A stretch of 64,000 bases of DNA from Bacteroidales bacterium (GTDB lineage Bacteria; Bacteroidota; Bacteroidia; Bacteroidales; G3-4614): positions 62,001 through 126,000 of the forward strand of contig JAFXDI010000009.1 of assembly GCA_017521245.1 (NCBI GenBank). The letters are read 5' to 3'. The notes beneath the pieces are model-generated. The model was not told the origin of the DNA. It did not search any database and saw nothing but the letters and a program-made list of their open reading frames with translations. The position numbers were made by a program, and so were the translations under genes. This document shows, in pieces, positions 39,756 through 49,648 of the stretch (position 1 is its first letter; each line of letters begins with the position of its first letter).

Positions 39756-40256
39756 TTACTCCTCCCAAATATTTTCAATCTCGGCAACGTACATATAGTG
39801 GAGGTCGCCATCTTTATACCATTTGGGGAGAATTGATTTATCAATAAAACACTCCTCGGTTAGTAGAGATTTATATAACTTACGGCATTTAAAAACCAGA
39901 CGAGCCTCCTCAAAAGCAACGCATCCCTCAGCAGGAGCGTATGGAGTAATACCGGCCTCCTTTGCTTTGTCGGTATCTCTGCCCGATTTAGTACCGCACA
40001 ACGTGAGAGCCTTTCGGTACCCCTCGTTAAAGAACGAAAGAGTAAATACTTCACTCTCCTCAATAAACTCAAAAGTATAGCGTTGAGGTCTTATAAAAAT
40101 TGTAACAACGGGCTTACCCCACAAGAAACCCATACAACCCCAGCTTGCAGTCATAGTGTTGTATTTGTCAATATTACCGGCAGTAATTAAGGTCCAGTCT
40201 TTACCAATAAGATTGATAATATTCTCGTTAAGGTTATCAACCGAAATCTCTTTCAT
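39756..40256 (-). CDS. Flavin reductase-like protein
   Basis: The 166-residue protein fits the flavin reductase-like split-barrel family: DWTLITAGNIDKYNTMTASWGCMGFLWGKPVVTIFIRPQRYTFEFIE is a typical FMN-contact region, and FTLSFFNEGYRKAL follows. Such proteins reduce or bind FMN and occur widely in anaerobes with unknown partners. Lacking a companion monooxygenase here, the role is uncertain. It lies 45 bases beyond the coiled-coil gene on the same strand and may end that transcript. Confidence 0.85.
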   Translation of the reverse strand: MKEISVDNLNENIINLIGKDWTLITAGNIDKYNTMTASWGCMGFLWGKPVVTIFIRPQRYTFEFIEESEVFTLSFFNEGYRKALTLCGTKSGRDTDKAKEAGITPYAPAEGCVAFEEARLVFKCRKLYKSLLTEECFIDKSILPKWYKDGDLHYMYVAEIENIWEE

Positions 40257-40301: not shown

Positions 40302-42044
40302 CTAATCCCACAATTTCATTTGGGCAGGATCTTCAAAAGGAATATCAATAGCGCTCTTCTCCTCCTCTGATTTCTGCTCCTTTTCGCGTTCACGTTTAGT
40401 TCTCTCTCTAATCTCCTCCTCAGTCTCAGGCTCCATCACAACCATCCAGTCGTCCTCAACAAAATCAAACAGACCTTCATCTTTCTTAGGCATAGAGTTA
40501 CGTAACTTCTCAACTTCGTTAGTCAGAGCAACAACATTCATTCTTGCAATCTCAGCATCTTTTCGTGCCTTCTCGCTCTTCTTCTCCTCCTCTTTAAGTT
40601 TTTCGGTAAGTTCCTCTATCTGTTTTGCAGCCTTTTTGTTCTCGGCAATCCTTTCGCGTTTAACCTGTATCTTCTCAATCTTCTCATTGGCTTCGGTAAT
40701 GATGTTCTCTTTGTTCTGAAGTTCAATTTTAAGTTCAGTTATCTCGGCACTAAGTTCCTCAACCTTATCGTTAGTCCCTTCAGGGAATTTTTTAAGGTTT
40801 TCAATCTCCTTATCTTTATTCTCAATCTCTTTGACTGCCTCGTTCAATTTTATTTGAAGTTCCGAAGTTTTATTATCTGCCATCTCAAGTTTCTCTCTTA
40901 GGTCTCTCATTTGGCTAACTAAGTTATCCGATGGCATATTGTTATTATTCTCAGCCTCTTCGAGTTTCAGTTTTGTAAGAGCAAGGTCGGCGTTGAGTTG
41001 TTCAATCTGTTTATGTAATTCTCCCTCCGACTCCTCATAAATTTTATCCTTATATTGAGTTAACTCCGATTGAAGAGCCTGATATTTTCTTGTAACCTCT
41101 ATCAATCTTTGAGTAAGAACCTCATCTCCACCTTCAGGAATCTCCTCTTTGCTATTAAGCGACTCTTGAAGTGCCTCAATACGAGCCTGTAAAGTCTTCT
41201 CTCTTTCAACCGCTTGAAGAACAAGTTCCTCCTTCACGTGTAGAGTAGTCTCAAACGACTCAACCACCTCTTTTATGTGGTCATCACTTGCCAAAAGGCG
41301 TTGCTCCATCTCTCCGTTCTCGGTTTCAAGAGCAATAATTTTATTCTTAAGCGACTCAATAAATTCACTCTCTGAGAATCCTTCGCTTTGTCCCATTAGA
41401 TTGTTGTTAACCTCTAACTGTTTGTAATGTTCAACCTCCAATTTAAGTTGCTCATTGCTCTCTTCAAGTTGATTTTTTGTTTTAGTTATTTGGCGAAGAT
41501 TATTATTTGATTCAATACGAGCATTCTCCGATTTGGCAAAATCTTTCTCCACCTTTGCAAACTTCTCTTCAAGATCTCTAACCTTATCGTTTAAGGCACG
41601 TTTCTGACGCTCTGCACTCAAATATCTGTTTTTGTAGTCCTCCTCGCGTTGCGAAGCAAGTTTAAGTTTCTCTTCAAGTTCAACAACAAGATCCATATTA
41701 TCATCGCCCTCAATAAAGAGAGGAGAACCATCGCTTTTTTCGGCTTTCAAGAGCAGGTATTTGATATATTCGCAGAATGTAGGGCGTAAACTCTCCTTAA
41801 TCTCCAGCTTCTCAGCCTCTCGGTCTATTGTTTTGAGAATAACTTCGGGGAGAGGTTTGTTTACAATATCAGTAATCTGCTCCAAAATAGCATCAGGAAT
41901 ATCCACCTCGCTAATCGCTTTATCAAAATCGTTGTTAGGAGTAACCTCTTTAATATTCTTGTGAGCAGGTTTCTCAGTTGAGTTTTGAGTCCCCTGATCC
42001 GATGAAAATATTGAAAGTAGTGATTTCTTGAAGTTTAGTTTCAT
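40302..42044 (-). CDS. Long coiled-coil protein of unknown function
   Basis: Not recognised beyond its architecture. The 580-residue product has a folded-looking N-terminus (residues 1-110) including DIPDAILEQITDIVNKPLPEV and ending in SDGSPLFIEGDDN. About 400 residues of nearly continuous Glu/Lys/Leu-rich coiled coil follow. Near the end is a short conserved-looking acidic stretch, FDFVEDDWMVVMEPETEEE, and the tail is DIPFEDPAQMKLWD. No signal peptide or membrane segment is seen. It starts 29 bases after the receiver/PPDK-like gene and is almost certainly co-transcribed with it, suggesting a structural or scaffolding partner. Confidence 0.75.
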   Translation of the reverse strand: MKLNFKKSLLSIFSSDQGTQNSTEKPAHKNIKEVTPNNDFDKAISEVDIPDAILEQITDIVNKPLPEVILKTIDREAEKLEIKESLRPTFCEYIKYLLLKAEKSDGSPLFIEGDDNMDLVVELEEKLKLASQREEDYKNRYLSAERQKRALNDKVRDLEEKFAKVEKDFAKSENARIESNNNLRQITKTKNQLEESNEQLKLEVEHYKQLEVNNNLMGQSEGFSESEFIESLKNKIIALETENGEMEQRLLASDDHIKEVVESFETTLHVKEELVLQAVEREKTLQARIEALQESLNSKEEIPEGGDEVLTQRLIEVTRKYQALQSELTQYKDKIYEESEGELHKQIEQLNADLALTKLKLEEAENNNNMPSDNLVSQMRDLREKLEMADNKTSELQIKLNEAVKEIENKDKEIENLKKFPEGTNDKVEELSAEITELKIELQNKENIITEANEKIEKIQVKRERIAENKKAAKQIEELTEKLKEEEKKSEKARKDAEIARMNVVALTNEVEKLRNSMPKKDEGLFDFVEDDWMVVMEPETEEEIRERTKREREKEQKSEEEKSAIDIPFEDPAQMKLWD

Positions 42045-42073
42045 TATAATAAAAAATTATATATTGTTTTATG

Positions 42074-45061
42074 TTACTCTTCTGTATGTGGTTTTATAAT
42101 AATACCAACATTTTTCTTTCCGTTTATCTTAATAACAAGAGGAGCCGATAGTTCAACCACTCTAATATATTCACTCTCGTGTTGAGCGGGAAGAGAATCC
42201 AAGAACCTTTTGTCATATTTACACTCGCAACTCGATGGATCTATTGTAAAGTATCCAACTCCAAACGAAGTAAGGTTCTGGAAGAAGTGAGTTCCCTGAC
42301 TTGGCTCAATCCAAAAATCTTTAATAGCAGTCTCAACAATAGCCTTTGCAGCCGAAATATGAGGCCACTTAATGGGAATACCAAGAGCCGTATCACTTGA
42401 GCCCCATCTGCCGGGTCCAACTAAAACATAGTTCATCTTCTCCTCAAGGAATTTTTTATTAATCTTCTCAATCTCGCGAGCAATATAAGAGTTAGCAAAA
42501 TACCCAAACACGTTGTCTTTAACATAAACAACATGTCTTACCCCCTCATCAACGCCATGGCCTAATGCCGAGGTACTCTTTATCAGAATATCCTCATCCC
42601 TGACATTATCAATCTCATCCTCACGCATCTCCTTCATATCAACAATGGGGCGTATTTGCAACCAATAAACCTCGCCATTATTGTTCTCTCCACCCTTTAG
42701 ATTACCGGCAAACTCAATCTCAACAGGGCGTCCCATCTCATCCTTGCCATAGGTAAGCATCATGCTTAAGATTTTAGCGAGGGGGAACATATCGTGTTTT
42801 AGAATGTTGGCAAAGGTAACAACCTTTCGACCTTCATCGTAATATCCATCACGAATAACTTGGTCCATATAATCGTATGTCGATACCATACCATATAGAG
42901 CCTTATCGCTATCGGCATCGGCAATAGATAGTTTCTGAATATTAAACCCATCATCAATAGAGAACGATTTATCTCTCTTCTCCATATCAAGAGCGTAGAA
43001 ACGAGTTTGAGTATCACTCAAGGCCATCTCCATTGTACTGGTTTGTAAAATAGAGTTAGGATGCTTAGGCGAGAAGCGTAAACTTCTGCCACCATCAACA
43101 ATATATTTACCCAACCCCACAGCAACATCAACAACGCCATCTTCAGGTTTCTCGTCGTTAATGGGGTAGTAGTTAAGCGAACGACCAACACCCGAGAACG
43201 AAGGATAGAAACGCTTATCATACATTGTGCCCACCACCTCTTGAAGAATAATAGCCATCTTCTCTTGGTCAATAATATTTGAAGTAGCCTCCATATAAGC
43301 TTTACTATCGGAGTAATATACCGAAGCATACACACCCTTAATAGCATCTTTTAGCATATTCAGCATTACCATTTTATCCTCATTATATGGAATCATATAA
43401 GTAGAATAGATACCGGCAAAGGGTTGGTAATGAGAGTCCTCCAAAAGGCTCGAAGATCGAACAGCAATAGGATTTTCAATAACATCAAATAGAGCTAAAA
43501 AGTCATTATCAAGGTGTTCGGGGAGTTTAGCCTTTAAGAAGTGTTCCAATATCTCCTCATCAGGAATATCACTCAGAGCAACCGAGTATAGGAAGTTCTC
43601 CTCCATAAACTCATCGAATATGTCTGTACTCAAAACAACAGTCTTTGGAACAGCAACCCTGACGCCGTCGCAATTAGCAAGTTCGGGGTGGCGTTTTATA
43701 ATAGCATCAACAAAAGCCAAACCTCTGCCTTTACCGCCCAAAGAGCCTTGTCCAATACGAGCAAAGTTTGAGTATTTATCAAAGCGAGTACGTTCAAAGA
43801 TAGCAACAACACCGCTATTCTTCATTTTACGATATTCAACAATAGCCTCAAAGATAATATTCTTAATCTCGTCGGCATTATCGCACGAACGTACAGTCTT
43901 TTGTCGCAAGAGTTCGGCAAGAGGGAACATAGCACGAGAGTATAACCAACTTGAAATATGGTTACGGCTTGCGTGATAAAGTACCGACTCATCAGGAATA
44001 TCAAAAATCTGGTCCTGTAAATCCTTAAGGTCTTTAACCGTAGCAACCACCTCGCCGGTAATGGGGCGAATAAACTCAAAGTCACCATATCCAAAGTTCC
44101 TTAAAACGGCATATTTTAAGTCAACAGGTAAGGTTTTAGAGTTTTTGTATAGGAACGCAGCATTATATTTTGCTGCTGCTTCGCTATTCTCAATATCTGA
44201 TGAGTCAATAATAATAGGCAGATCTTCATTATGGCATCTCAGGTACTCGCAAAACTTCAAACCTGCTTTACTATCCTTTTCTCCATTACGGGTAAACGAA
44301 ACATCTGTAACAACGCCCAGAACATTGCTACTGTATTTGTCGTATATCTCAACAGCCTCTTCGTATGTACGAGCCAAAACAATCTTTGGTCTGCCTCGCA
44401 TACGTAGCATCTGTTCGTGTCGGTTAAGAGCCTCGGTCGAGAATATCTGAGACTGTTTAAGGACCACTTTGTAGAGGATAGGTAGAATTGAAGAGTAGAA
44501 ACGTATAGAGTCTTCAACAACAATAATAACCTGTACGCCAACCGAAGCAACATCCTCTTCAAGATTCATATTGTCCTCCATCAACTTAACAATAGCAAGA
44601 AGAAGGTCGGCATTACCAAGCCAACTGAAAGTGTAATCAACAGCACTCAAATCCTCTTTTGCCAATCTGCGGGAAACCTCGTGAGAGAATGGAGTTAAAA
44701 GAACTAACGGAATATTCTGGTGGCTCTTTTTTAAGCGTTTAATCTTTTTGAATACGTTGGCATCCTGCATAGCAGGCATAACAATAATAAGATCGTAGTT
44801 CTTTTCCTGCAACTCTTTCTCTGCCTGCTCAAAGGTATAAGCCTCTGTAACGCGAGGAGGAGAAGTCAAGTTAAGAGACATATATTCCATAAATATATGC
44901 TCCTCAATACGTCCATCCTCTTCCAATATAAAGGCATCATATCTGCTTGCAATCAGCAAAACATTGAAAACACGTTTTTGCATAAGATTTGCAAACGAAG
45001 TATCCTTCATATAGAACGCACTGATACTCTGTCCTTTATTGTTTTCACCTATCGCATCCAT
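42074..45061 (-). CDS. Receiver-like plus PPDK_N (PEP synthase-like ATP-grasp) protein
   Basis: A 995-residue cytosolic protein. Residues about 30-165 form a degenerate receiver-like fold (VFNVLLIASRYD...YDLIIVMPAM...IPLVLLTPF). About 175-330 form a second receiver-like domain with VIIVVEDS and a candidate phospho-acceptor Asp in GVVTDVSF. About 440-800 match the ATP-binding domain of pyruvate phosphate dikinase/PEP synthase, with GQGSLGGKGRGLAF and AVRSSSLLEDS..QPFAGIYSTY. The phosphohistidine swivel and PEP/pyruvate barrel are absent; instead a distinct C-terminus has VGPGRWGSSDTALGIPIKW. It is therefore not a complete PEP synthase. The substrate is unknown. A coiled-coil gene follows. Confidence 0.85.
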   Translation of the reverse strand: MDAIGENNKGQSISAFYMKDTSFANLMQKRVFNVLLIASRYDAFILEEDGRIEEHIFMEYMSLNLTSPPRVTEAYTFEQAEKELQEKNYDLIIVMPAMQDANVFKKIKRLKKSHQNIPLVLLTPFSHEVSRRLAKEDLSAVDYTFSWLGNADLLLAIVKLMEDNMNLEEDVASVGVQVIIVVEDSIRFYSSILPILYKVVLKQSQIFSTEALNRHEQMLRMRGRPKIVLARTYEEAVEIYDKYSSNVLGVVTDVSFTRNGEKDSKAGLKFCEYLRCHNEDLPIIIDSSDIENSEAAAKYNAAFLYKNSKTLPVDLKYAVLRNFGYGDFEFIRPITGEVVATVKDLKDLQDQIFDIPDESVLYHASRNHISSWLYSRAMFPLAELLRQKTVRSCDNADEIKNIIFEAIVEYRKMKNSGVVAIFERTRFDKYSNFARIGQGSLGGKGRGLAFVDAIIKRHPELANCDGVRVAVPKTVVLSTDIFDEFMEENFLYSVALSDIPDEEILEHFLKAKLPEHLDNDFLALFDVIENPIAVRSSSLLEDSHYQPFAGIYSTYMIPYNEDKMVMLNMLKDAIKGVYASVYYSDSKAYMEATSNIIDQEKMAIILQEVVGTMYDKRFYPSFSGVGRSLNYYPINDEKPEDGVVDVAVGLGKYIVDGGRSLRFSPKHPNSILQTSTMEMALSDTQTRFYALDMEKRDKSFSIDDGFNIQKLSIADADSDKALYGMVSTYDYMDQVIRDGYYDEGRKVVTFANILKHDMFPLAKILSMMLTYGKDEMGRPVEIEFAGNLKGGENNNGEVYWLQIRPIVDMKEMREDEIDNVRDEDILIKSTSALGHGVDEGVRHVVYVKDNVFGYFANSYIAREIEKINKKFLEEKMNYVLVGPGRWGSSDTALGIPIKWPHISAAKAIVETAIKDFWIEPSQGTHFFQNLTSFGVGYFTIDPSSCECKYDKRFLDSLPAQHESEYIRVVELSAPLVIKINGKKNVGIIIKPHTEE

Positions 45062-45090: not shown

Positions 45091-45098
45091 CAAATATA
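45091..45098 (-). promoter_or_regulatory. -7 promoter element of the receiver/PPDK-like operon
   Basis: The minus strand reads TATATTTG, exact match, about 30 bases before the ATG at 45061. Confidence 0.6.
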
Positions 45099-45172: not shown

Positions 45173-45208
45173 AAAAAAAGAGAAGAGGTACCCGAGTACC
45201 CCTTCTCT
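45173..45208 (-). terminator. Intrinsic terminator of korAB
   Basis: AGAGAAGAGGTAC pairs with GTACCCCTTCTCT (one mismatch) around a CCGA loop, with a run of Ts next on the minus strand. It sits just beyond the korB stop. Confidence 0.85.
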
Positions 45209-45229: not shown

Positions 45230-46234
45230 CTATTTAACCTCCCAAGTCTCTTCGCTAAGAAGAAGGTTGCGTAGAGTTTTACCGGGTTTCTTATCTCTAA
45301 TCTCCTCCATTTGACGTTTAACCTCTTCGTCATAGCAAGGAGCCTCTGCCGAGCGGATAACACCCACTGCAAGAGGAAGTTCGTGACCATCCATCATTGC
45401 AAGTCGAAGATGCAAGAAGTTGTCTTGAGTAGTCTCATCGTGAACTAAAATGTCATCTAAAGTAACACCATTCTCACCAATTGTCACAACCTTTAAGTTA
45501 AGACCATCAAGAACCAAACCTTTATCCATATTCTTACCAAACAACATCTTCTCACCATGTTTAAGGTGAATAGTGCGTTCAGCTCTAAACTCTTTGTCGG
45601 CAACATGTTTGTGAATTTGGTCATTAAAAATCACACAGTTTTGTAAAACTTCAACAACCGAAGCACCCTTATGTTTAGCTGCTGCAACCATAACCTCTTT
45701 TGCGGTAACAAGATCAACATCAATAGTACGAGCAAAGAAGTTTCCTCTTGCACCAAAAGTAAGTTCAGCAGGGATAAAAGGATCTTCAACAGTTCCGTAG
45801 GGCGAAGATTTAGTTACCGCACCTCTGTTACTTGTAGGAGAGTATTGTCCCTTAGTCAAACCATATATCTTGTTATTCAAAAGAATAATATTAAGGTTAA
45901 CATTACGGCGAATTTCGTGAATAAAGTGGTTACCACCAATAGCAAGACAGTCACCATCACCGGTAATTTGCCAAACTGTCAAATCGGGATTTGCAGTCTT
46001 AACACCAGTAGCAATAGCACCGGAGCGTCCGTGAATAGTATGAAAGCCATAAGTGCCCATATAGTAGGGAAGGCGTGAAGAACAACCAATTCCCGATATT
46101 ACTGCAATTTTGTGAGGAGGAATACCCACCTCTGCCATTGCCTTTTGTAGAGTATTTACCACAGCGTGGTCGCCACAACCGGGACACCAACGCACATATT
46201 GGTCGCTCTTAAAATCTTTTGCTGTATATTCCAT
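45230..46234 (-). CDS. korB: 2-oxoglutarate:ferredoxin oxidoreductase, beta subunit
   Basis: KorB is the thiamine-diphosphate-binding subunit that works with KorA to convert a 2-oxoacid, CoA and ferredoxin into acyl-CoA, CO2 and reduced ferredoxin. The 334-residue protein has RWCPGCGDHAVVNTLQKAM, GIGCSSRLPYY, HGRSGAIATGVK and the ThDP motif ITGDGDCLAIGGNHFIHE...NIILLNNKIYGLTKGQ. The 2-oxoglutarate assignment rests on closeness to Bacteroidota KorB; other 2-oxoacids are possible. It lies 12 bases after korA. Confidence 0.92.
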   Translation of the reverse strand: MEYTAKDFKSDQYVRWCPGCGDHAVVNTLQKAMAEVGIPPHKIAVISGIGCSSRLPYYMGTYGFHTIHGRSGAIATGVKTANPDLTVWQITGDGDCLAIGGNHFIHEIRRNVNLNIILLNNKIYGLTKGQYSPTSNRGAVTKSSPYGTVEDPFIPAELTFGARGNFFARTIDVDLVTAKEVMVAAAKHKGASVVEVLQNCVIFNDQIHKHVADKEFRAERTIHLKHGEKMLFGKNMDKGLVLDGLNLKVVTIGENGVTLDDILVHDETTQDNFLHLRLAMMDGHELPLAVGVIRSAEAPCYDEEVKRQMEEIRDKKPGKTLRNLLLSEETWEVK

Positions 46235-46246
46235 AGTTATATCCTC

Positions 46247-48088
46247 CTATAAGTTTTTAAGAAAATCAACAAGTTCTTCAACCATAAAAGGCTGACCTTG
46301 TACTTTATTAAATTTCTTAACTTGTAATCCCTCTATTTTTGAAACAAGGTGAGTAGCAAATTGTCCATTATTCAACTCGCATACCACCACGTTTTTGTAT
46401 CTCTTGATAACCTCTTCAGTATTAGCAGGAAGAGGGTTAATGTAGCGGAAGTGAGCAAGAGCCGTTTTTTTACCCATAGCGTTCAACTCCTCAACTGCGG
46501 TAACAAGGTGTCCGTAAGTACCACCCCAACCAATAACCAAAGTATCGGCACTCTCATCGCCCTCAACTTTAAGAGGCTCAATGCAATTAGCAATATACTC
46601 TATCTTGTTTTTACGAATATCAACCATCTTTTGGTGATTAGCAGGGTCAGTTGAAATAGCACTTGTGCTGGCATCTTTCTCCAAACCGCCTAAACGGTGC
46701 ATAAATCCCTCCATACCGGGTATAGCCCAGTAGCGAACAAAAGATTCTGCGTCACGTTTATAAGGTTTCCAACCCTCCTCTAACATTTCAGGTTTAACAT
46801 AGTTAGGTTTGATTTCGGGGAAGTCGTTATCCTCAGGAATACGCCATGCAGCCGAACCGTTTGCAATAAAGGCATCTGTTAATAGAATAACTGGAGTCAT
46901 ATGCTCCACTGCAATCTTGGCAGCGTTGAAAGCCATATCAAAGCAATCTGTTGGTGTAGATGCTGCAAGAACTACCGCAGGAGACTCTCCGTTACGACCA
47001 TAAAGAGCCTGAAGCAAGTCTGTCTGCTCAGTTTTGGTAGGTAGTCCTGTTGAAGGACCACCACGTTGAACATCAATAACCACCAATGGGATTTCTGCCA
47101 TAACAGCCAAACCAATAGCCTCGCTCTTCAAAGCCAAACCGGGACCCGAAGTAGAAGTAGCAGCCAAATTACCGGCAAACGAAGCACCTATTGCAGTACA
47201 AACACCGGCAATCTCATCCTCTGCCTGAACAACCTTAACACCCAAATCTTTACGTTTAGCAAGTTCGTGCAAAATATCGGTAGCAGGAGTAATAGGATAA
47301 CTACCCAAGAATAGGGGAAGTCCCGATTTCTCCGAAGCCATGATTAAGCCAAGAGCAGTAGCACGATTACCATTAATGTCGGTATAGATACCAGGTTTTT
47401 GAGATTTGCTCTCAATGCGGTATGTCGATACCGAAGCATGTATATTATTACCATAATCATAACCAGCGGTCAAAACCTTTAGGTTAGCCTCAAGAATGGT
47501 AGGTTTCTTGCCAAATTTATTTGTAAGAAGTTTTGAAGCTTGCTCAATAGGACGGTCAAATAACCAGCAAATCAAACCGAGAGCAAACATATTTTTGCAT
47601 CTCATAATAGATTTATTATCCATACCACTATCGGCAAGAGAGGCAGCAACCATCGAAGATAGAGCAACAGGAACAATCTGTACAGTTGCCGCTGCACCAA
47701 TCTCAGCGAAAGGATCATCGGTAGTAAAAGCAGCCTTATCTAAATCGCTTTTAGCGAAAGAATCAGTGTCATAAATAACAATACCATCGCTCTTTAAAAA
47801 CTTAAAGTTAGTTTTAAGAGCGGCAGGGTTCATAGCCACTAAAACATCAGCTTTATCACCGGGTGTGTGAACACCGTTACCAATGTGTACTTGAAAACCA
47901 GATACACCACCAAGAGTTCCTTGAGGTGCTCTAATTTCGGCAGGATAGTCGGGGAATGTAGATATTTCGTTACCAATTGCGGCAGAAATATTAGAGAGGA
48001 TGTTTCCTGCAAGTTGCATACCATCTCCCGAGTCTCCCGAGAAACGGACAACCACCTTCTCTACATTTTTTACTCTTGTTTCTGACAT
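46247..48088 (-). CDS. korA: 2-oxoglutarate:ferredoxin oxidoreductase, fused gamma-alpha subunit
   Basis: The 613-residue protein joins an N-terminal gamma domain (about 1-185: VVRFSGDSGDGMQLAGNILS, FPDYPAEIRAPQGTLGGVSGFQVHIG) to an alpha pyrimidine-binding domain (from about 200: LGSYPITPATDILHELA, QAEDEIAGVCTAIGASFAG, TSTSGPGLALKSEAIGLA, DVQRGGPSTGLPTKTEQ) and a C-terminal domain II. This fused layout is usual in Bacteroidota, where the enzyme feeds anaerobic 2-oxoacid and reductive TCA chemistry. It is the first gene of the korAB unit. A weak promoter-like TTACTTTG (minus strand, 48184-48191) lies about 100 bases upstream. Confidence 0.94.
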   Translation of the reverse strand: MSETRVKNVEKVVVRFSGDSGDGMQLAGNILSNISAAIGNEISTFPDYPAEIRAPQGTLGGVSGFQVHIGNGVHTPGDKADVLVAMNPAALKTNFKFLKSDGIVIYDTDSFAKSDLDKAAFTTDDPFAEIGAAATVQIVPVALSSMVAASLADSGMDNKSIMRCKNMFALGLICWLFDRPIEQASKLLTNKFGKKPTILEANLKVLTAGYDYGNNIHASVSTYRIESKSQKPGIYTDINGNRATALGLIMASEKSGLPLFLGSYPITPATDILHELAKRKDLGVKVVQAEDEIAGVCTAIGASFAGNLAATSTSGPGLALKSEAIGLAVMAEIPLVVIDVQRGGPSTGLPTKTEQTDLLQALYGRNGESPAVVLAASTPTDCFDMAFNAAKIAVEHMTPVILLTDAFIANGSAAWRIPEDNDFPEIKPNYVKPEMLEEGWKPYKRDAESFVRYWAIPGMEGFMHRLGGLEKDASTSAISTDPANHQKMVDIRKNKIEYIANCIEPLKVEGDESADTLVIGWGGTYGHLVTAVEELNAMGKKTALAHFRYINPLPANTEEVIKRYKNVVVCELNNGQFATHLVSKIEGLQVKKFNKVQGQPFMVEELVDFLKNL

Positions 48089-48943: not shown

Positions 48944-49648
48944 TTATGCCTGCTTTTCAAGTTTATCAACCCTTTTCCAGCACTCAATTCTGTATTTCTC
49001 AGCATATCTCTTTTCCCAGAATAGCCAGATAAAAAATACAAATACACTCATTGCCATACCGGAGTAGTCGTGAGCGGCAACAAATATCTCTTTATTTTCG
49101 CACATAGTAGTCAAGTTAACAATTGACAATCTAAAGCAGTTTATAATAAAGAAAAGGATAAGAGCAGTGGGTATATACCATATCTTAGGTTTAGTAGGAC
49201 CAGGTATAAGAAGCATCAATAAGAGAATAATCATCATCTCTCTATTACCAGCACAGGTGGGAAAAATTCTTACACCGCCTAAATATTTACCCTCATCGCT
49301 ACGGATAATAACAGACTCTCTATCTCTCTCAATGTTTTGCATATAAACATATCTATTAAAGAACTCTACACCGTCAGCAGTTCTAAGAGATATCCATTGG
49401 TTGTAATCCGAGAAATCAACAAACTCCATAATAGGCTCAGGATCATACTCTCCGTCCCAGCCAGTATAGAATGCAAAATTGTCGCTACCTCCCCACCAAA
49501 TAATCCTGACAAAACCAAAGATTAAGAAGAATAGGATAAGACCTATAAAACCATTAGTTCTTTCACTTCCCAAACTCTTCCAAACCTTATCGGGGCATCT
49601 TTTTTTGAGAAAGCCGAGTATGCGTTGATATGGTTTAAACCCTTTCAT
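48944..49648 (-). CDS. Exosortase/archaeosortase-family membrane protein
   Basis: The 234-residue protein has a hydrophobic helix at about 33-52, then an extracytoplasmic loop (53-130). Further helices at about 136-150, 156-175 and 196-212 follow. The exosortase catalytic residues all appear at family spacing: Cys132 in FPTCAGNREMM, Arg173 in NCFRLSIV, and His193 in AAHDYSGMAMS. Exosortases are cysteine transpeptidases that process C-terminally tagged exported proteins, often with polysaccharide export. No PEP-CTERM-like partner was found in the window. It is placed between folK (5 bases before) and aroK (18 bases after), so it is part of that operon. Confidence 0.78.
   Translation of the reverse strand: MKGFKPYQRILGFLKKRCPDKVWKSLGSERTNGFIGLILFFLIFGFVRIIWWGGSDNFAFYTGWDGEYDPEPIMEFVDFSDYNQWISLRTADGVEFFNRYVYMQNIERDRESVIIRSDEGKYLGGVRIFPTCAGNREMMIILLLMLLIPGPTKPKIWYIPTALILFFIINCFRLSIVNLTTMCENKEIFVAAHDYSGMAMSVFVFFIWLFWEKRYAEKYRIECWKRVDKLEKQA

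Follow-up and report, generated by a model that had tools for sequence, protein, structure and literature searches.

The window, that is, the whole 64,000-nucleotide stretch of Bacteroidales DNA that was analyzed, carries a gene for a 995-residue protein (A) and, after a gap of exactly 29 bases on the same minus strand, a gene for a 580-residue coiled-coil protein (CC) (Table 1). A sequence-only reading of this DNA had described A as two receiver-like domains joined to a PEP-synthase-type ATP-grasp and had placed CC 29 bases behind it. We found the ORFs and the gap to be exactly as described, and Pfam assigned Response_reg and PPDK_N to A. Neither ORF is a chance one: A has orthologs that are 46-97% identical across Bacteroidales, and those of CC are found in a few families. 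Among the matches listed, the named genome whose A is closest is a Bacteroidales one from goat cecum (97%), followed by Coprobacter and Barnesiella genomes (68-69%). The window genome (2.09 Mb) encodes two glutamate dehydrogenases (GDHs) besides a single A and a single true PPDK.

Table 1. Features at the A locus (window coordinates)
Feature	Position	Strand	Basis or remark
A, 995 aa: REC1, REC2, linker, PPDK_N ATP-grasp, C-terminal domain	42074..45061	-	ORF, Pfam, conservation, model
REC1, Asp-less receiver, residues about 33-165	44567..44965	-	Pfam Response_reg, conservation, model
REC2, intact receiver, residues about 176-322	44096..44536	-	conservation, model
Linker, residues 323-418, conserved	43808..44095	-	conservation; weak DUF5752 match in paralog B
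PPDK_N ATP-grasp, residues 440-818	42608..43744	-	Pfam E 6e-41; conservation; Foldseek to 5hv1
C-terminal domain, residues 820-995	42077..42604	-	conservation, model, Foldseek
CC, 580-aa coiled-coil protein	40302..42044	-	ORF; few families (Barnesiella/Coprobacter/Muribaculaceae-type genomes)
CC C-terminal peptide QMKLWD	40305..40322	-	family consensus Q[ML]xL[FW]
Flavin-reductase-like gene	39756-40256	-	after CC
TATATTTG, promoter candidate upstream of A, no clear -33	45091..45098	-	read directly off sequence
Terminator-like hairpin with T run, 13-bp stem, between KorB and A	45179..45208	-	scan match only
KorB-like 2-oxoacid:ferredoxin oxidoreductase beta subunit	45230..46234	-	upstream neighbor of A; domain search
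KorA-like 2-oxoacid:acceptor oxidoreductase alpha subunit	46247..48088	-	TIGR03710 above cut-off

Because the terminator-like hairpin stands between KorB and A, A and CC probably form a transcription unit of their own, apart from KorAB. TATATTTG matches the Bacteroidetes -7 consensus TAnnTTTG; a promoter scan gave matches that were no more frequent than in shuffles. The KorAB annotation is a subfamily-level match to 2-oxoacid oxidoreductases, with 2-oxoglutarate the likely product or substrate. The window also encodes an exosortase/archaeosortase-family protein at 48944-49648 (TIGR04178 above cut-off; weak XrtX).

Domains of protein A

The Response_reg match of A (E 8e-9) covered two stretches, and Foldseek matched its receivers to PleD. 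We aligned two sets of sequences, one of 33 sequences of A and its paralog B and the other of 77 A sequences. In both, a nearly invariant methionine (Met95) takes the place of the phospho-Asp in REC1, and no Lys is conserved after beta5. REC1 is a receiver fold without the phospho-Asp, that is, an Asp-less receiver (ALR). REC2 has the acidic pair, the phospho-Asp, the Ser/Thr and the Lys of a receiver: E183, D253, S287 and K306 are invariant in the 33 sequences, with D184 nearly so, and all of these are invariant in the 77. In the AlphaFold2 model of A (mean pLDDT 85, pTM 0.75) these residues are placed as in active receivers: E183/D184 follow beta1, D253 and S287 lie at the ends of beta3 and beta4, respectively, and K306 comes directly behind beta5. 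In one B protein (L083), residues 503-569 of the linker between receivers and ATP-grasp gave a weak match to DUF5752 (E 0.009).

The active-site Lys, Arg, Glu, Gln and Arg of PPDK_N are all present in A. K444, R535, E541, D542, E783 and Q802 are identical across the four architectures compared, and R804 is invariant in A and replaced by Lys in B. R535 aligns with R117 of 5fbs, and Foldseek matched the fold of the ATP-grasp to AMPPNP-bound rifampin phosphotransferase (5hv1, E 3e-11). The contacts on which the sequence-only reading had staked an ATP-driven phosphorylation, perhaps of CC, are therefore kept in the orthologs, and because they are kept an ATP-driven reaction is plausible; the other part of that proposal, CC as a conserved partner, did not stand (see below). 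Neither the PEP-utilizer (phosphohistidine) domain nor the PEP/pyruvate TIM-barrel gave a Pfam match in A even at E <= 1, in agreement with the earlier view that A lacks both, and about 175 residues follow the ATP-grasp.

These last residues, which carry GPGRWGSSDTALGIP, had been called a conserved-looking C-terminus of A's own. They are indeed strongly conserved, with GPGRWG at 882-887, D890, W899, E910, S921/G923 and H925-F926-F927; H925, which lies in an [ST]HFF motif, did not vary among any of the sequences compared. Folded alone, the domain gave a confident model (pLDDT 87, pTM 0.87). Pfam found nothing in the last 175 residues, and Foldseek of the model returned no PDB match below E 1e-3 (TM at most 0.33). 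To judge from this model, the domain is one without a solved structural relative. The string GPGRWG...LGIP had prompted us to consider a degenerate phosphohistidine domain; Foldseek gave this no support, and with no PDB match below E 1e-3 the domain is therefore not a recognizable phosphohistidine domain.

Distribution of the family and of the coiled-coil protein

A or its paralog B occurred in 104 of the 119 sampled Bacteroidales genomes (~87%), a count that includes one genome with a receiver-level match only (E 2.9e-4); both were absent from the remaining 15. A or B was also present in 2 of the genomes sampled from a different family within the class, and these proteins extend to other Bacteroidota. 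In the plasmid search for relatives outside Bacteroidota, full-length A gave PPDK_N-level matches only, while the C-terminal domain gave matches in Bacteroidota only; the best 80 matches listed in the genome-wide scan with A were all from Bacteroidales.

The core of the family is the ATP-grasp with the C-terminal domain, which also occurs alone (about 580 aa). In A the core stands behind two receivers. In B, often encoded in tandem with A, it is preceded by two receivers and, before them, a GAF-like part, where GAF-like is our own reading of the similarity among B sequences and not a Pfam call. A more distant branch, marked by GPGRWGSRGDIKLGV and SFGTHFFQD, joins the core to a C-terminal nucleotidyltransferase (NTP_transf_2; about 1060 aa). 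Its members at L198 (3996-7175), L202, L204, L205, L208 and L212 lie beside an archaeal-type GDH, and several of these loci have a metallophosphoesterase gene nearby. At two other loci (L090, 7944-9666, and L098, genes 6 and 7), a stand-alone GAF-like plus nucleotidyltransferase protein and then a calcineurin-like phosphoesterase are encoded between B and A.

CC is far less widespread. It occurred, in one copy each, in 17 of the 247 genomes of the order, limited to a few families, and A is mostly encoded without a CC gene behind it. The sequence-only reading had treated A and CC as a pair, with CC as a possible acceptor of an ATP-driven phosphorylation, and had named conservation of the two-gene order across Bacteroidales as a check. 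A tight order is seen where CC occurs, as in most of these genomes it starts 8-35 bases behind A, which suggests co-expression there; in one genome (G610) the two are near each other with one ORF between. In contrast to the 104 of 119 genomes with A or B, however, 17 of 247 is a narrow distribution, and outside the genus the identity of CC falls to about 18-27%. Moreover, two genomes (G606 and G701; completeness 99% and 95%) have retained CC, the motif at its C-terminus included, but not A, which is found nowhere in either genome. Where A would lie by synteny, between CC and GDH (L239 and L240), they have only short unrelated ORFs, whereas the sister genome G218 has A there (L069). The two-gene order is thus not conserved across the order, CC was ruled out as a conserved partner of A on its distribution and on the two A-less genomes, and a phosphorylation of CC by A is very improbable. 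The comparison of G606 and G701 with G218 amounts to a natural loss of A that left CC and GDH in place.

CC ends in a peptide that resembles the bacterial sliding-clamp-binding motif QL[SD]LF. Although CC sequences diverge to about 20% identity, all 26 of the CC C-termini listed fit Q[ML]xL[FW], 20 fit Q[LM][SDT]L[FW] and 4 fit the strict QL[SD]LF. The pattern was found in the last 10 residues of 21 of 1337 ORFs, 19 of them CC. A QL[SD]LF-type peptide thus stands at an exposed end of CC, Coprobacter-type proteins excepted: the shorter homologs at L101 and L232, outside the list of 26, have lost the Q[ML]xL[FW] peptide. The peptides QGALFD, QLSLYD and QLRLPF occur in Y-family polymerases of this group. 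Among the neighbors of CC, which are mixed genes (miaA-like and others), we found no coherent replication clue. CC is a companion of A in certain lineages only. Because of its terminal peptide it may have a role of its own, possibly one related to the sliding clamp, and it is a candidate for DnaN binding.

Association with glutamate dehydrogenase

When the neighbors in 41 Bacteroidales loci were clustered, the commonest neighbor of A and B was a 445-residue protein (18 genes in 15 loci) that NCBIfam names glutamate dehydrogenase. Across the 119 Bacteroidales genomes, 49 of 143 A/B genes lay within 3.5 kb of a GDH gene, where about 0.7 would be expected on random gene order without correction for shared ancestry. 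GDH directly adjoins the family member in 15 of the 41 Bacteroidales loci and, in other Bacteroidota, in 14 of 20 loci. The conserved partner of A and B is therefore GDH, and the link is strong. It is not visible from the window, because both GDH genes of the window genome lie on other contigs and neither adjoins A. Genomes of the 119 that lack A still carry GDH, and so GDH can do without A.

The association also distinguishes between paralogs. With A and B, and likewise GDH1 and GDH2, split by identity thresholds rather than trees (GDH1 being the closer GDH class), A was found with GDH1 20 times and with GDH2 twice, and B with GDH2 22 times and with GDH1 5 times. The Fisher test gave p = 4e-7, which is a guide only since the test takes the loci as independent though they are not. 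In four of the five B:GDH1 cases the genes are about 3 kb apart with A between them. Six genomes (G221, G236, G278, G282, G285 and G302) have both matched pairs, at two separate loci each, and the nucleotidyltransferase branch sits beside a third GDH, the archaeal-type one.

The arrangement of GDH differs between clades (upstream and divergent, downstream and co-directional, or upstream and co-directional). These differences argue against one frozen event and are hard to explain by gene-order inertia alone. One might still suppose that this gene order has simply been inherited, that it means nothing for function and that A is unrelated to GDH. Most sampled A genes of Bacteroidales do lack a GDH alongside, and the divergent upstream arrangement is common in named Bacteroidales genomes; however, the link is common to at least three arrangements or orientations, to four architectures and to several classes, and the paralogs are matched at separate loci of the same genome. 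We therefore consider mere inheritance improbable.

KorA/KorB-like genes lie near A or B in 6 of the 41 loci, the window included, and the likely 2-oxoglutarate of the KorAB next to A here is what GDH uses. A could be a metabolic ATP-grasp kinase or ligase acting on glutamate, 2-oxoglutarate or a related acid from GDH and KorAB, with the C-terminal domain holding the substrate and the receivers only tuning the reaction. The intact ATP-grasp and the conserved extra domain with its many invariant polar residues are consistent with such an enzyme, as are the scores against A of PPDK_N enzymes from other pathways, namely rifampin phosphotransferase and the prodigiosin ligase PigC. On the other hand, pairing with individual GDH paralogs, the archaeal-type one included, and the receivers, GAF-like part and nucleotidyltransferase to which the core is fused look like control and not like a pathway step, and clustering of the 41 loci showed no further conserved pathway gene. 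A metabolic role is on balance unlikely.

Proposed role and known systems

The reading that we favor, and think somewhat better than even, is that A is a signal-controlled partner of one GDH paralog. A would represent the founding type of a family of ATP-using proteins in Bacteroidota, each dedicated to one GDH paralog at the 2-oxoglutarate/glutamate node. A signal would set whether D253 of REC2 is phosphorylated, and the Asp-less REC1 would serve as an adaptor or dimerization domain; the state of REC2 would switch the ATP-grasp; and the ATP-grasp and C-terminal domain would modify or otherwise control the cognate GDH. The link to GDH would then be regulatory, with ATP hydrolyzed, GDH as the acceptor and the invariant H925 taking part as a candidate phosphate carrier or catalytic residue. 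Regulatory parts recur across the family: the intact REC2, the GAF-like extension of B and a histidine kinase beside A in three loci.

These kinases, of PAS/HisKA_3 type, adjoin two-receiver members in other Bacteroidota (L199, L203 and L211) and are candidate cognate kinases. No histidine kinase was found in the window neighborhood examined.

That A modifies GDH covalently is a more tentative proposal. Against a GDH regulator of this kind counts the absence from the family of the phosphohistidine domain, which is normally the route of PPDK_N enzymes. A has no phosphoryl-acceptor domain of any known type and is paired with GDH, and B carries Lys for Arg804; these observations could instead point to a non-catalytic or regulatory ATP/AMP sensor that acts allosterically on bound GDH, its ATP-grasp serving as an energy sensor. 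This is quite unlikely, however, as all architectures strictly retain H925 and the remaining active-site residues of the ATP-grasp, which would be needless for pure binding. Returning to GDH modification, it is possible, if doubtful, that the family represents an unrecognized post-translational control of GDH in Bacteroidota, in which each member would phosphorylate or, in the nucleotidyltransferase branch, nucleotidylate its own GDH paralog and phosphoesterases would reverse the modification.

In gut Bacteroidales, GDH is one of the main routes by which ammonia enters amino acids, and its control there is poorly described in the literature that we searched. With A or B in most sampled Bacteroidales and each paralog tied to its own GDH, the family is a testable candidate for this control. 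The pairing suggests a new way of controlling nitrogen uptake in gut Bacteroidales. It would also provide an output for a receiver/dikinase combination that only domain surveys had recorded, and our analysis draws attention to a conserved domain for which no related structure has been solved.

The architecture of A is already known. Response regulators that combine REC with pyruvate phosphate dikinase have been listed as a "Bacteroides-like combination" (Galperin et al. 2018, PMC5847659), and Asp-less receivers with PPDK effectors have been recorded (PMC4395418), which fits REC1. These proteins resemble A in joining one or more receivers to a PPDK-type domain; the parts of the two papers that we consulted report the combination only and not the C-terminal domain, a GDH link or a function. 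Nor was a function or GDH link for the family found in the open papers searched, a scope outside which most subscription journals lie, and this agrees with the earlier remark that no function is described. The GDH pairing and the analysis of the C-terminal domain appear to be new.

A shares the PPDK_N fold and active-site residues with PEP synthase, pyruvate phosphate dikinase and rifampin phosphotransferase (5hv1). Unlike these, it has no swivelling phosphohistidine, PEP/pyruvate or rifampin domain, and its C-terminal domain is different. HpeI of Rhodococcus (9goj), a separate PPDK_N-type subunit, likewise has the fold without the full dikinase set; unlike A, it has no receivers and no reported GPGRWG/HFF domain, and it belongs to a pathway of its own.

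PleD-type regulators, which Foldseek matched, resemble A in having tandem receivers, one of them without the phospho-Asp, before an enzymatic output. PleD is phosphorylated on its first receiver and has GGDEF as its output, whereas in A the second receiver is intact and the output is an ATP-grasp. The control of glutamine synthetase by GlnE/GlnD, which works through nucleotidylylation, is comparable by analogy only, as dedicated covalent control of a nitrogen-assimilation enzyme. The A family differs in its link to GDH rather than glutamine synthetase, in its ATP-grasp and receivers, in the absence of a nucleotidyltransferase from the window A and in that the modification here is a proposed one; as with GlnE/GlnD, however, one branch of the family has a nucleotidyltransferase domain with a phosphoesterase gene nearby.
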